Source: Thalassobius sp. Cn5-15 (GTDB lineage Bacteria; Pseudomonadota; Alphaproteobacteria; Rhodobacterales; Rhodobacteraceae). From it: a stretch of 64,000 nucleotides of DNA. Below the pieces are notes generated by a model that was not told the DNA's origin, ran no database searches, and worked only from the letters and a program-made list of their open reading frames with translations. The position numbers and the translations under genes were made by a program. Positions 25,891 to 56,355 of the stretch are shown here, in pieces. The stretch's first letter is position 1; each line of letters opens with the position of its first letter. The stretch is from assembly GCF_022347685.1 (NCBI RefSeq), contig NZ_JAKRGF010000011.1:1-64000 (forward strand), read 5' to 3'.

Positions 25891-27017
25891 CAGCGCTCCA
25901 ACACCGAGGCAGCGGTCAGCGTCCAGCTGAGCCAGACCTCATCTTCCCAAGAGAAGTTCCGGCGTGACAGGCGGCGGGTGTTGGTGGCCTGTGCCTTGAC
26001 CATTACGCCACCGGGCAGTTCGACGTGATAGGTCGAGATGTTGCCGAGGTAGCCGATATCTATGATCTTGCCCTTCACCGCGTTGACCGCGCCTTCGGGC
26101 TTTTCTTCGGCGATGGAGATCTTTTCGGGGCGCAGGGCGACAAAGGCCTTCTGCCCTTCATTGAGCACGGCGGTGGTTTTGGCGTGGATCGGTTCCTGCC
26201 CTTCGGCCCATTTGATGTCATAGCCATCGTCGCTGGTTTTATGCGCTGCGCCTTCGATGATGTTCACATCGCCAATGAAGTCAGCGACGTAGACCGAATT
26301 CGGCTCTTCGTAAATCTTCGGCGGGGTAGAGACCTGAATGATTTTGCCGTGGTCCATCACCGCGACACGGCTGGCGACGGTCATCGCCTCTTCCTGGTCG
26401 TGGGTCACGATCACAAAGGTGGTGCCGGTCTTTTCCTGAATGTCCATCAATTCAAACTGCGTCTCTTCGCGCAGTTTCTTGTCCAGCGCGCCCAGAGGCT
26501 CATCCAGCAACAGCAGTTTCGGGGCACGAGCCAGAGACCGTGCTAGCGCCACACGCTGACGCTGACCGCCAGACACCTGATGCGGTTTGCGTCTGGAAAA
26601 CTGCGTCATACGGGTCAGGCGCAGCATGTCCTCAACCCGTTCTTCGATCTGCGCTTTGGGCATTTTCATCCGGCGCAGACCAAAGGCGATGTTGTCCCAG
26701 ATCGACAGGTGCGGGAACAGCGCGTAGGACTGGAACATCATGTTCACCGCCCGTTCATTTGGCGGCACCGCGGCCATGTCCTGACCGGCGATCAAAATCT
26801 GGCCTTCGGTCGGGGTTTCAAACCCTGCCAGCATCCGCATCATAGTGGTCTTGCCACAGCCCGATGGGCCCAAAAGAGCGAAGAACTCGCGCGCGTAGAT
26901 ATCCTGTGTCAGGTTATCAATTGCGGTGAAGCTGCCATAGCGTTTGGTCACGCCTTTGAATTGGATCAGCGGTTTTTCGGTGGGATCTTCCCACGGCGCA
27001 AATACATCTAGAGTCAT
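25890..27017 (-). CDS. potG: polyamine ABC transporter ATP-binding protein
   Basis: 375 residues. Walker A GPSGCGKTT near residue 50, the signature VSGGQRQRVALARSLA, Walker B LLLLDEPLGALD and the switch His in VIVTHDQEEAMT are all present. A C-terminal TOBE domain (about residues 290-370) follows, as in PotA/PotG. It powers import through PotH-PotI. It is separated from potF by 66 bases that contain a hairpin. Confidence 0.95.
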   Translation of the reverse strand: MTLDVFAPWEDPTEKPLIQFKGVTKRYGSFTAIDNLTQDIYAREFFALLGPSGCGKTTMMRMLAGFETPTEGQILIAGQDMAAVPPNERAVNMMFQSYALFPHLSIWDNIAFGLRRMKMPKAQIEERVEDMLRLTRMTQFSRRKPHQVSGGQRQRVALARSLARAPKLLLLDEPLGALDKKLREETQFELMDIQEKTGTTFVIVTHDQEEAMTVASRVAVMDHGKIIQVSTPPKIYEEPNSVYVADFIGDVNIIEGAAHKTSDDGYDIKWAEGQEPIHAKTTAVLNEGQKAFVALRPEKISIAEEKPEGAVNAVKGKIIDIGYLGNISTYHVELPGGVMVKAQATNTRRLSRRNFSWEDEVWLSWTLTAASVLER

Positions 27018-30957: not shown

Positions 30958-32058
30958 TTGCCTGACGGATCCACTAGCGATGCTTTTGTCGCGTTTGAAC
31001 GCGTGCAAAAAAGTTACGACGGTGAAAACCTGGTCGTAAAAGACCTGAACCTTTCTTTGCCCAAGGGCGAATTTCTGACGATGCTTGGCCCGTCGGGTTC
31101 CGGAAAAACCACATGCCTGATGATGCTGGCCGGTTTCGAAACTGCCACCCACGGCGAAATCCTTCTTGATGGGCGTCCGATCAATAACATCCCTCCGCAC
31201 AAGCGTGGTATCGGGATGGTGTTCCAGAACTACGCTCTGTTCCCTCACATGACGGTCGCTGAAAACCTCTCCTTCCCTCTGGAAGTGCGCAAAATGGGCA
31301 AGTCCGAGCGTGAAGAGAAGGTAAAGCGTGCCTTGGATATGGTGCAGATGGGGGCCTTTGGTGGTCGCCGTCCTGCACAGCTTTCTGGTGGCCAGCAGCA
31401 GCGGATCGCACTGGCGCGTGCGCTGGTGTTTGAACCTGAGCTGGTGCTGATGGATGAGCCGTTGGGCGCGTTGGACAAACAGTTGCGCGAACACATGCAG
31501 TTTGAAATCACCCGTCTGGCCCACGAACTGGGCATCACCACGGTGTACGTGACCCACGACCAGACCGAAGCGTTGACCATGTCGGACCGCGTTGCCGTGT
31601 TTGACGATGGCCGCATTCAGCAGCTGGATCCGCCAGACACCCTGTATGAAGAGCCGCAGAACAGCTTCGTTGCGCAGTTCATCGGTGAAAACAACACGCT
31701 GGAAGGTGTGGTGCAGGAAATCAACGGTGACAAATGCCTGGTCCGTCTGGACGATGGCGAAGTGATCGACGCCAAGCCGATCAACGTCAGCCAAGTGGGC
31801 GAACGCACCCGTGTGTCGATCCGTCCTGAACGGGTCGAGTTTAACAAAGAGCGCCTGCAGGAGGGCGCCCACACCCTGAAGGCCGAAGTGCTGGAATTCA
31901 TCTATATGGGTGACATTTTCCGCACCCGTCTGCGGGTGGCGGGTAACGACGAGTTTGTCGTTAAAACCCGGAATGCGCCTGACCAGGTCCGCCTGAAACC
32001 CGGCGAGCAAATCGAAATCGGTTGGCTGCCAGAAGATTGCCGCGCGCTGGACGCGTGA
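30958..32058 (+). CDS. potA: polyamine ABC transporter ATP-binding protein
   Basis: 366 residues with a TTG start after GCGGGGAG. Walker A GPSGSGKTT near residue 45, LSGGQQQRIALARALVFEP, Walker B VLMDEPLGALDKQ and the switch His in VTHDQTEALT are present. A TOBE domain fills the C-terminal third. It energises the second importer, together with the downstream binding protein and two permeases. The gene follows a long leader that has its own terminator, so its expression may be controlled by read-through. Confidence 0.93.
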   Translation: MPDGSTSDAFVAFERVQKSYDGENLVVKDLNLSLPKGEFLTMLGPSGSGKTTCLMMLAGFETATHGEILLDGRPINNIPPHKRGIGMVFQNYALFPHMTVAENLSFPLEVRKMGKSEREEKVKRALDMVQMGAFGGRRPAQLSGGQQQRIALARALVFEPELVLMDEPLGALDKQLREHMQFEITRLAHELGITTVYVTHDQTEALTMSDRVAVFDDGRIQQLDPPDTLYEEPQNSFVAQFIGENNTLEGVVQEINGDKCLVRLDDGEVIDAKPINVSQVGERTRVSIRPERVEFNKERLQEGAHTLKAEVLEFIYMGDIFRTRLRVAGNDEFVVKTRNAPDQVRLKPGEQIEIGWLPEDCRALDA

Positions 32059-54088: not shown

Positions 54089-54261
54089 TTCGAGTCCCCT
54101 TCGTAATATGCATTTTTCAGGCAAGGTTGTGACCCTCGCGGCTGTCCACTCCGCAAGAATCCATATTTCAACTTTGAGTCAAATTGCGCCGACACCTCTT
54201 AACAAAGGGTTAATAGGCATCGTGCTTACAGGGGCACTAAGCTATTTTTGCTGCAAGTGCA

Positions 54262-54290
54262 TAAAAAAGAACCCGGGCAGAGCCCGGGCT
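54262..54290 (-). terminator. terminator after the regulator/small RNA
   Basis: The stem GCCCGGG/CCCGGGC has a 3-base loop and is followed, on the minus strand, by TTCTTTTTT. Confidence 0.85.
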
Positions 54291-54407
54291 AGTCCAACAG
54301 GGAGGTGCGCAGCGAAAGCCGGCTGCGCGGCGGCAACCAGATCAATGGCAATCTTGGAGGGAGGTAGGTGCCATTGATACTGGGTATTCAAGAACGCCGA
54401 TAAACAC
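54262..54407 (-). ncRNA. candidate small RNA with anti-Shine-Dalgarno loop
   Basis: Read on the minus strand directly after the regulator's stop: a 10-bp stem ATCAATGGCA/TGCCATTGAT (54341-54378) encloses an 18-base loop with CCTACCTCCCTCC; then the stem GCGCAGC/GCTGCGC (54307-54328); then CACCTCCCTG in a single-stranded stretch; then the terminator GCCCGGG-TCT-CCCGGGC with a U run (54262-54288). C-rich loop plus terminator is the design of the alphaproteobacterial CcsR/ar14-type small RNAs that bind ribosome sites. The 5' end is uncertain; it may be cut from the regulator mRNA. Confidence 0.55.
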
Positions 54408-55094
54408 TTAGGCTACTAATTTATAGCCGCCGGATTCGGTGATGAGAAGACGCGCATTCGTAGGGTCTGGCTCAATTTTTTGGCGCAAACGATAGATATG
54501 AGTCTCCAAAGTATGGGTTGTGACGCCGGCGTTGTAGCCCCAGACCTCATGCAGCAGCACATCGCGCGGCACCACACCATCTGCAGAACGGTAGAGGTAT
54601 TTGAGGATGTTGGTCTCTTTCTCGGTCAGGCGAATCTTGCGATCGTCTTCGGTGACCAAGAGCTTCATTGACGGGCGGAAGGAATATGGGCCTAGTTGGA
54701 AAACCGCGTCTTCGCTCTGCTCGTGCTGACGTAGCTGGGCGCGGATGCGGGCCAGCAACACGGGGAAGCGGAACGGTTTGGTGACGTAATCATTGGCGCC
54801 TGCGTCCAGACCCAGAATGGTGTCTGCATCCGAATCATGTCCGGTCAGCATCAGGATCGGGCTTTTCACGCCCTGCTTGCGCATCAGTTTGCACAGCTCG
54901 CGCCCGTCGGTGTCGGGCAGGCCAACGTCCAGAATGATGAGATCGTAGAGGCCTTCTTTGACCTTGGCCATGGCTTCAACACCATTGCCCCCTTCAAAGA
55001 CGTCGAAGTCTTCGGTCATGATCAGCTGTTCGCTGAGGGCTTCGCGCAGGTCCTCATCGTCATCAATTAACAGGATTTTCTTTAACTGTGCCAT
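54408..55094 (-). CDS. OmpR-type response regulator
   Basis: 228 residues. The receiver starts ILLIDDDEDLREALSEQL. The phospho-acceptor Asp is in DLIILDVGLPDTDG near residue 55, and the Lys is in YVTKPFRFPV. The effector winged helix ends THTLETHIYRLRQKIEPDPT. The receiver opening (DDDEDLREALSEQL) resembles CenR/OtpR regulators of the alphaproteobacterial cell envelope, but I cannot confirm the assignment. No kinase gene is adjacent. A candidate small RNA follows the stop directly and may share the transcript. Confidence 0.88.
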   Translation of the reverse strand: MAQLKKILLIDDDEDLREALSEQLIMTEDFDVFEGGNGVEAMAKVKEGLYDLIILDVGLPDTDGRELCKLMRKQGVKSPILMLTGHDSDADTILGLDAGANDYVTKPFRFPVLLARIRAQLRQHEQSEDAVFQLGPYSFRPSMKLLVTEDDRKIRLTEKETNILKYLYRSADGVVPRDVLLHEVWGYNAGVTTHTLETHIYRLRQKIEPDPTNARLLITESGGYKLVA

Positions 55095-55263
55095 GAGGTC
55101 CTCCGTTCGTCCTCCGTTGTCTTGCTATTAGACATGCGATGGTCTGCGCCTCAGAACAAGATTTGCTGCATCTGTCTCACGCGGACGTGTTTTCGTCGCC
55201 GTGATTGTTTCAATCTGTTGCAAAAACGGCTAAATCAAGCCTCCAAGATAGGGAAGATCGGCC

Positions 55264-56355
55264 ATGTCATTTGCCCCGAATGTAACAGAAATCATCGCCC
55301 GCGCCCGCGCAGACCTGCGAATGGGCGTGCCTGTTGTCCTGATGTCTGGGGGCAAAGGCGCCATTATGATGGCTGCGGAAACGCTTGATCCGCAACGATT
55401 GGCCGATTTGCGCGTCCTTGGCGGGCAACCGATTCTGGCGATTACGGCGCGACGTGCCGAAACTCTGAAGGCGCGTGCCTATGACGGCGATCTGGCCCGT
55501 GTGAGGATTCCCGATGATGCGACCTGCGCTTGGGTGCAGTCGATTGCCGATCCTGCTGATGATCTGTCAAACCCGATGAAAGGTCCGCTGCAAACCAGCC
55601 GCGAGGGTGCGGCGGATCTGAACCGTGTTGCGATTGCGCTGGCTAAATCCGCGCGTCTGCTGCCTGCGGCGGTGCTGCTTGATCAGGCCAACCCGGCGGG
55701 TTTTGCAGCTGCGAACCTGTTGACCGCGGTGCCTGCGGATCTGGCGGGTCCCATTCTGCTGGCGTCGCCGCAGCCGCATCCCGTTGTGGCCGCCCGCCTG
55801 CCGGTGGAGGCAAGCGAGGCCGGACGTTTACACATCTACCGCCCCGAAGATGGCGGTGAAGAGCATTACGCCTTTGAGGTCGGCGCGCCCGCACGGGATG
55901 AACCGGTTCTGGCGCGCCTGCATTCGGCCTGCTTCACTGGCGACGTGCTTGGCAGTCTGAAATGTGACTGCGGCCCGCAGCTGCGTGGCGCGCTGGCGCA
56001 GATGGGTGAGACTGGGGCCGGTGTCCTCCTCTATCTCAACCAAGAGGGGCGCGGCATTGGTCTGGCCAACAAGATGCGGGCTTATTCCTTGCAGGATCAG
56101 GGGTTCGACACGGTAGAGGCCAATCACCGTCTGGGCTTTGAAGATGATGAGCGCGATTTCAAACTGGGCGCAAAGATGCTGCGGTCGATGGGCTTTTCCA
56201 AGGTGCGGCTGTTGACCAATAACCCGCGCAAGATCGCGATGATGGAAAAGAACGGGATTGAGGTCGTGGATCGTGTGCCGCTGAAGGTAGGCGAAAACCG
56301 GTTCAACACCGATTATCTGGCTACCAAGGCGCAAAAGTCGGGGCATATGCTGTGA
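55264..56355 (+). CDS. ribA: GTP cyclohydrolase II with degenerate RibB-like N terminus
   Basis: 363 residues. Residues 160-355 are a complete GTP cyclohydrolase II: the zinc-binding CFTGDVLGSLKCDCGPQ, LYLNQEGRGIGLANKMRAY and the late MRSMGF..LLTNNPRKI. It starts riboflavin synthesis from GTP. Residues 12-75 (RARADLRMGVPVVL, AAETLDPQRLADLRVLGG) resemble dihydroxybutanone-phosphate synthase but lack its acidic active-site loop, so this part is probably a non-catalytic remnant. The transpeptidase-like gene overlaps its stop by GTGA. Confidence 0.9.
   Translation: MSFAPNVTEIIARARADLRMGVPVVLMSGGKGAIMMAAETLDPQRLADLRVLGGQPILAITARRAETLKARAYDGDLARVRIPDDATCAWVQSIADPADDLSNPMKGPLQTSREGAADLNRVAIALAKSARLLPAAVLLDQANPAGFAAANLLTAVPADLAGPILLASPQPHPVVAARLPVEASEAGRLHIYRPEDGGEEHYAFEVGAPARDEPVLARLHSACFTGDVLGSLKCDCGPQLRGALAQMGETGAGVLLYLNQEGRGIGLANKMRAYSLQDQGFDTVEANHRLGFEDDERDFKLGAKMLRSMGFSKVRLLTNNPRKIAMMEKNGIEVVDRVPLKVGENRFNTDYLATKAQKSGHML

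Follow-up and report, generated by a model that had tools for sequence, protein, structure and literature searches.

The closest described system to the locus considered here is the small RNA (sRNA) SorX of R. sphaeroides, which is cut from the mRNA of the gene RSP_0847 (PMC6238624, PMC9438474, PMC8625941), is processed to 116 nt and then by RNase E to 75 nt, and depends on Hfq (PMC6238624, PMC9438474), with the RNase E site placed at position 2,598,224 (PMC6238624). Another study describes co-transcription of RSP_0847 with the sRNA RSs2461 from an RpoHI/II promoter and their induction by singlet oxygen (PMC3320616). The same gene has been characterized as cenR, whose product is essential and controls the envelope and division, and in the available text of that paper neither "SorX" nor "small RNA" occurs (PMC9275681). 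Evidence that SorX is transcribed together with its host gene, cut by RNase E, dependent on Hfq, and induced by stress has been published for R. sphaeroides only. We take RSs2461 to be SorX; a single gene links two published lines of work, one in which RSP_0847 is the essential regulator CenR and one in which it is the host of SorX.

The window analyzed here is a 64,000-nt stretch of Thalassobius sp. Cn5-15, and its minus strand carries an OmpR-family response regulator gene (54408–55094, 228 amino acids) that is the ortholog of RSP_0847 (ompR-1/CenR) and presumably provides the host mRNA. The encoded protein contains a Response_reg (PF00072) and a Trans_reg_C (PF00486) domain and is 84% identical to the SorX-adjacent protein of genome G083, which we infer to be R. 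sphaeroides because its SorX match (2598225–2598299) coincides with the RNase E site cited above. This gene precedes the sRNA, and a WbaP-like sugar transferase gene follows it. Behind the regulator stop codon, the minus strand reads in order an extra 5′ hairpin (54337–54383), a second stem-loop, a core predicted to be unpaired, and a rho-independent terminator. The extra hairpin has 14 predicted pairs and an 18-nt pyrimidine-rich loop, CCTACCTCCCTCCAAGAT (54351–54368), which presents a first anti-Shine–Dalgarno-type motif, CCTCCCTCC (54356–54364). The second stem-loop (54307–54328) is the first of SorX in both folding and the Rfam model, and it is followed by the SorX core ACCTCCCTGTTGGACT (54291–54306), which holds a second motif of this type, and by a terminator of 9 pairs, 7 of them GC, that ends in CTTTTTT (54263–54290). 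The Rfam SorX model (RF02784) is matched over its complete length, positions 1 to 73, at 54265–54335 with 59.5 bits against a gathering cut-off of 46.6, and stop codon and core are separated by 103 nt in the window and by 102 nt in G083. On this score, the same-strand position behind the RSP_0847 ortholog, the predicted unpaired ACCUCCCUGUUGGAC core, and the terminator, all of them read from sequence, the window RNA belongs to SorX. It differs from SorX of R. sphaeroides in the additional hairpin between stop codon and SorX, where R. sphaeroides, judged by eye, has a short GC-rich stem only. The 73-position model does not reach this first stem-loop. SorX and its link to the regulator are published; the hairpin-bearing form is a variant beyond the Rfam model.

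The initial annotation of this locus had described two stem-loops, two C-rich motifs, and a terminator on the minus strand, and sequence and folding confirm this layout: the 171-nt stretch folds with −60.9 kcal/mol (z −3.46), and none of 200 shuffles was equally stable. Its proposal of an sRNA with two anti-Shine–Dalgarno-type motifs is likewise upheld, and its suggestion that the sRNA is cut from the regulator mRNA can be accepted as probable, this being the published context of SorX in R. sphaeroides. For the same reason, it was mistaken in regarding the linkage to a regulator as an unusual neighborhood.

Related families and further loci in the same genome help to place this RNA. SorY (RF02651) has the ACCUCCCUGUUGGACU core in common with it, but the window scores 38.6 bits with the SorY model, far under the gathering cut-off of 111. 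Elsewhere in the genome, a SorY-like locus (C9:336169–336224) with a LysR-like gene upstream scores 58.3 bits with the SorY model, also under that cut-off, and 47.5 bits with SorX, over the SorX cut-off. The SorX cut-off thus admits SorY-like loci; of 295 genomes sampled from the family, 232 have SorX matches above it, and some of these matches are SorY-like loci. A third exact match to the core (C13:143806, CCTCCCTGTTGG) was rejected, since by eye it is without the SorX stem or a T-run terminator, and C16 holds a weak match of 26.9 bits. In five other genomes, pairs of SorX-model matches lie 95 to 573 nt apart on one strand (G030:C183, G029:C398, G009:C9, G314:C5, and G221:C76), one member being under the cut-off in G029 and G009.

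The family named in the initial annotation was CcsR/ar14 (the cuckoo RNAs), and this assignment does not stand. What recommends it is the likeness of the extra hairpin to those described for ar14 as having a CCUCC loop on a variable stem (PMC10746234); the part of the earlier claim that survives is that the first stem-loop is CcsR-like, with a constant pyrimidine loop holding an anti-Shine–Dalgarno-type motif and a stem that, in relatives, changes freely. Three other features of the family are missing. The ar14 model (RF02344) gives no match at E up to 10 in 54100–55200, where the best Rfam match is SorX; a single hairpin, with CCTCCCTCC and not CCTCCTCCC in its loop and fused to SorX, stands in place of several CCUCCUCCC hairpins; and the preceding gene is the response regulator, with no DUF1127 gene adjacent. 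Moreover, the genome has its own ar14/CcsR array at another place, with seven exact CCTCCTCCC copies in 363 nt (C15:28246–28608), a DUF1127 gene before them, and an ar14 model match over part of the array at 69.7 bits against a cut-off of 58.8. Membership of the window RNA in the CcsR/ar14 family is accordingly hardly credible. Right behind a phasin gene of the same genome (C13:216418–216458), two hairpins with CCTCCTCCC loops occur together with another strong hairpin, and this locus has no Rfam match at E up to 0.001.

Of 1000 shuffles of the extra hairpin alone, none was equally stable (z −4.9). In the genus of the window it is present in four of nine genomes (G000, G002, G003, and G004), with stem core and CCTCCCTCC unchanged. 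To place it more widely, we used 206 loci that had not been selected for the hairpin, 57 from a set with the regulator nearest and 149 found by SorX searches. They do not form a random sample, the latter being mostly the highest-scoring loci, and they leave out duplicates and the pattern-selected loci L143–L161 and L295–L299. An earlier reading of the loci had dropped 14 at which the end of the regulator could not be read and 21 that lacked a core. An exact CCTCC lies between stop codon and SorX at 13 of the 206 loci, and at 8 of these 13 the loop of a strong hairpin holds it, against 4.3% of 2600 flank shuffles. The exact-CCTCC hairpin therefore occurs at 8 of 206 loci (9 with L237, where the loop had been taken for the core), four of them from the genus of the window. 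CCTCC before SorX was also found in 19 of 394 genomes and the reversed pattern in one, which is not a fair control; we set this count aside as evidence, several of the 19 being without regulator link or hairpin, and used loop placement alone. Some hairpins are weaker, that of L157 being matched by 348 of 1000 shuffles and those of L034 and L158 by 17 and 25 of 1000, respectively. At L161, the extra loop region CCTCCCTGTC resembles the SorX core CCTCCCTGTT, and this loop may have arisen by copying of the core. Among the matches listed in literature searches on SorX in Yoonia or Loktanella and on cuckoo RNA, none showed this hairpin.

Covariation of the stem in relatives had been named by the initial annotation as the evidence on which its proposal could fail, and the outcome differs between genera. 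No covariation was found in the genus of the window, where 8 of 10 stem pairs are invariant and the other two depart by unpaired cells only, so the comparison there is uninformative; the first SorX helix has both-side changes in two of seven pairs in four genomes of this genus. The stem does covary in genus g318, presumably Yoonia because its locus L354 and the Yoonia maritima locus L133 have an identical hairpin region. The 25 genomes of this genus that were searched gave 19 regulator-linked loci, 5 genomes with regulator-free loci only, and one with no match. Shortly behind the stop codon, 18 of the 19 regulator-linked loci have a hairpin with a CUCCC- or UCCCU-type loop, and 15 of the 19 have an exact CCTCC before SorX. 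Among 17 sequences, with L338, which has no hairpin, and L354, a near-copy of L353, excluded, both-side changes occur in 9 of 10 pairs of the hairpin stem. When the hairpin stem is taken jointly with the first helix of SorX, 96% of cells pair, against 27 to 47% in slid versions, and none of 500 shuffles reached the observed pairing percentage, both-side changes, or covariation score, while 7 of 500 reached the observed number of pair types. Because these shuffles ignore relatedness, the result is strong but does not translate into a probability. Across six lineages of that clade, the stems have 0 to 7 of 13 to 17 pairs in common. A tree built from 134 regulator proteins requires six changes of the hairpin trait, five of them forced by supported branches. 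The tree was labeled with 13 hairpin rows, including L153, which is otherwise kept out of the exposed-loop group, its CCTCC being mostly paired. Given the covariation, the divergent stems, and the six changes on the tree, the extra hairpin is most likely a real RNA element that has been gained or lost several times.

The hairpin could alternatively serve only to protect or time the processing of the 3′ UTR, as a nuclease barrier or a guide for RNase E, around an otherwise plain SorX. That R. sphaeroides SorX functions without such a hairpin and that the CCTCC hairpin is missing from most sampled SorX loci fit this explanation. It does not account for a loop that stays of the CUCCC or UCCCU type while the stem changes almost freely, nor for the way CCTCC stands out among pentamers in its placement in loops, at 13 of 15 occurrences against 463 of 12,441 for all pentamers in an earlier set of 201 loci, a count in which 8 of the 13 come from the genus of the window and overlapping copies are counted twice. 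We regard a loop without a pairing role as rather unlikely. It is because the loop is conserved that we prefer to read it as a second anti-Shine–Dalgarno loop.

The species of the window's genus that have no hairpin carry a different element at this place. A perfect TTGA-N6-TCAA box lies between stop codon and SorX at 58 of the 206 loci (e.g., L016, L025, and L073), whereas nine control patterns occur 0 to 1 times each. The distance from box center to core is 72 to 76 nt in 45 of the 58, 77 to 88 nt in 10, and shorter in three; measured to the first SorX base for 46 boxes at 153 SorX-search loci, it is 41 to 44 nt in 31, 46 to 57 nt in 12, and 11 to 12 nt in three. Published work places an Fnr site about 41.5 nt ahead of the start of D. 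shibae hemA3 (PMC5398030), and FnrL sites reported for R. sphaeroides, TTGACgcagATCAA among them, match box sequences at SorX loci (PMC2908626). The position near −41.5 and the FnrL-like sequence suggest, for the box-bearing species, a separate oxygen-responsive promoter of SorX in the regulator 3′ UTR; the literature searched yielded no statement on such a promoter. Within the genus, each of the five species without the hairpin (L025, L029, L030, L033, and L036) has the box and none of the four hairpin species does. The box is also absent, even with one mismatch, from all nine hairpin loci of the 206-locus sample, that of the window included. On the tree, it occurs in none of 12 hairpin rows. 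These counts suggest that box and hairpin are mutually exclusive, but they do not establish it, since the tree offers only four to five independent pairs, for which a sign test is not significant, and the 206-locus sample gives a Fisher p of 0.064. In the window, a TTGA-N10-TCAA on the minus strand (54374–54391) could, speculatively, be a relic of the sister species' box, its position having been compared by eye.

Loss of the cognate regulator does not explain the missing box. An FnrL-like protein with its cysteine motif is found in eight of nine genomes of the genus, including all four hairpin species, while the G006 locus was unreadable. The presence of this protein in the window's genome, the box in every hairpin-free species of the genus, and the narrow 5-nt range within which most boxes stand from the core would all be in keeping with independent transcription of SorX from its own 3′ UTR promoter here too, possibly under FNR control as suggested for the sister species. 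We nevertheless consider this improbable for the window, which has neither the box nor, in 54200–55300, any sigma-70-like promoter (0.5 expected by chance in a search restricted to sigma-70-like patterns), and in which a transcript starting at SorX would leave out the conserved hairpin.

The reading that we favor, and think probable, is read-through from cenR into SorX followed by cleavage, with the extra hairpin as a second anti-Shine–Dalgarno loop on the precursor. Transcription of the regulator gene would continue across the 3′ UTR as far as the terminator at 54263, and RNase cleavage would, by homology with R. sphaeroides, free SorX, which, probably together with Hfq, would pair its exposed ACCUCCCUGUUGGAC with the ribosome binding sites of target mRNAs. 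The extra hairpin, shortly after the regulator stop codon, would give the precursor a second CCUCCC loop, and before this precursor is cut, the hairpin most likely acts like one CcsR/ar14 hairpin, pairing with purine-rich ribosome binding sites and blocking translation. We infer such pairing by the hairpin loop, along with its targets, as well as read-through being the sole source of SorX at this locus.

Seen across the Rhodobacteraceae, these observations can be arranged into two states of SorX, an arrangement that we put forward only tentatively. In one, an FNR-type promoter in the cenR 3′ UTR would drive SorX alone in response to oxygen; in the other, the promoter is absent, SorX would come from read-through of the essential, stress-induced cenR, and the freed sequence would have become a second anti-Shine–Dalgarno hairpin, making a two-headed sRNA. 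As the genus of the window holds both states, the switch would have happened within it. In some relatives, the same sRNA would then be tied to the sensing of oxygen, and in others to stress and, through CenR, to control of the envelope, and the locus provides a case of a 3′-UTR-derived sRNA gaining a second, possibly target-binding, module.

The 3′ UTR loop might mainly repress the regulator's own mRNA through its Shine–Dalgarno sequence, and two GGAGG copies do lie upstream of the window's regulator gene. GGAGG is no commoner among hairpin-bearing loci, however, with 0 to 1 copies at 12 of 13 against 129 of 131 of the rest, and the regulator ranks only 16th of 60 by duplex energy with the SorX core; it is for want of GGAGG enrichment that we keep autoregulation as a weak and very unlikely rival to pairing with other mRNAs. 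Places near start codons that complement the core with one mismatch gave no clear target in the 12 of 22 examined. The window also contains two genes for transporter ATPases of the PotA type that score over the potA cut-off (25899–26876 on the minus strand and 31081–32043 on the plus strand), about 22 to 27 kb from SorX. Recovery of potA, the known SorX target, is not convincing: one of the two genes stands fifth by duplex energy among 60 start regions whose start codons were picked by a script, and the other gives −20.0 to −11.4 kcal/mol, according to which start is assumed.
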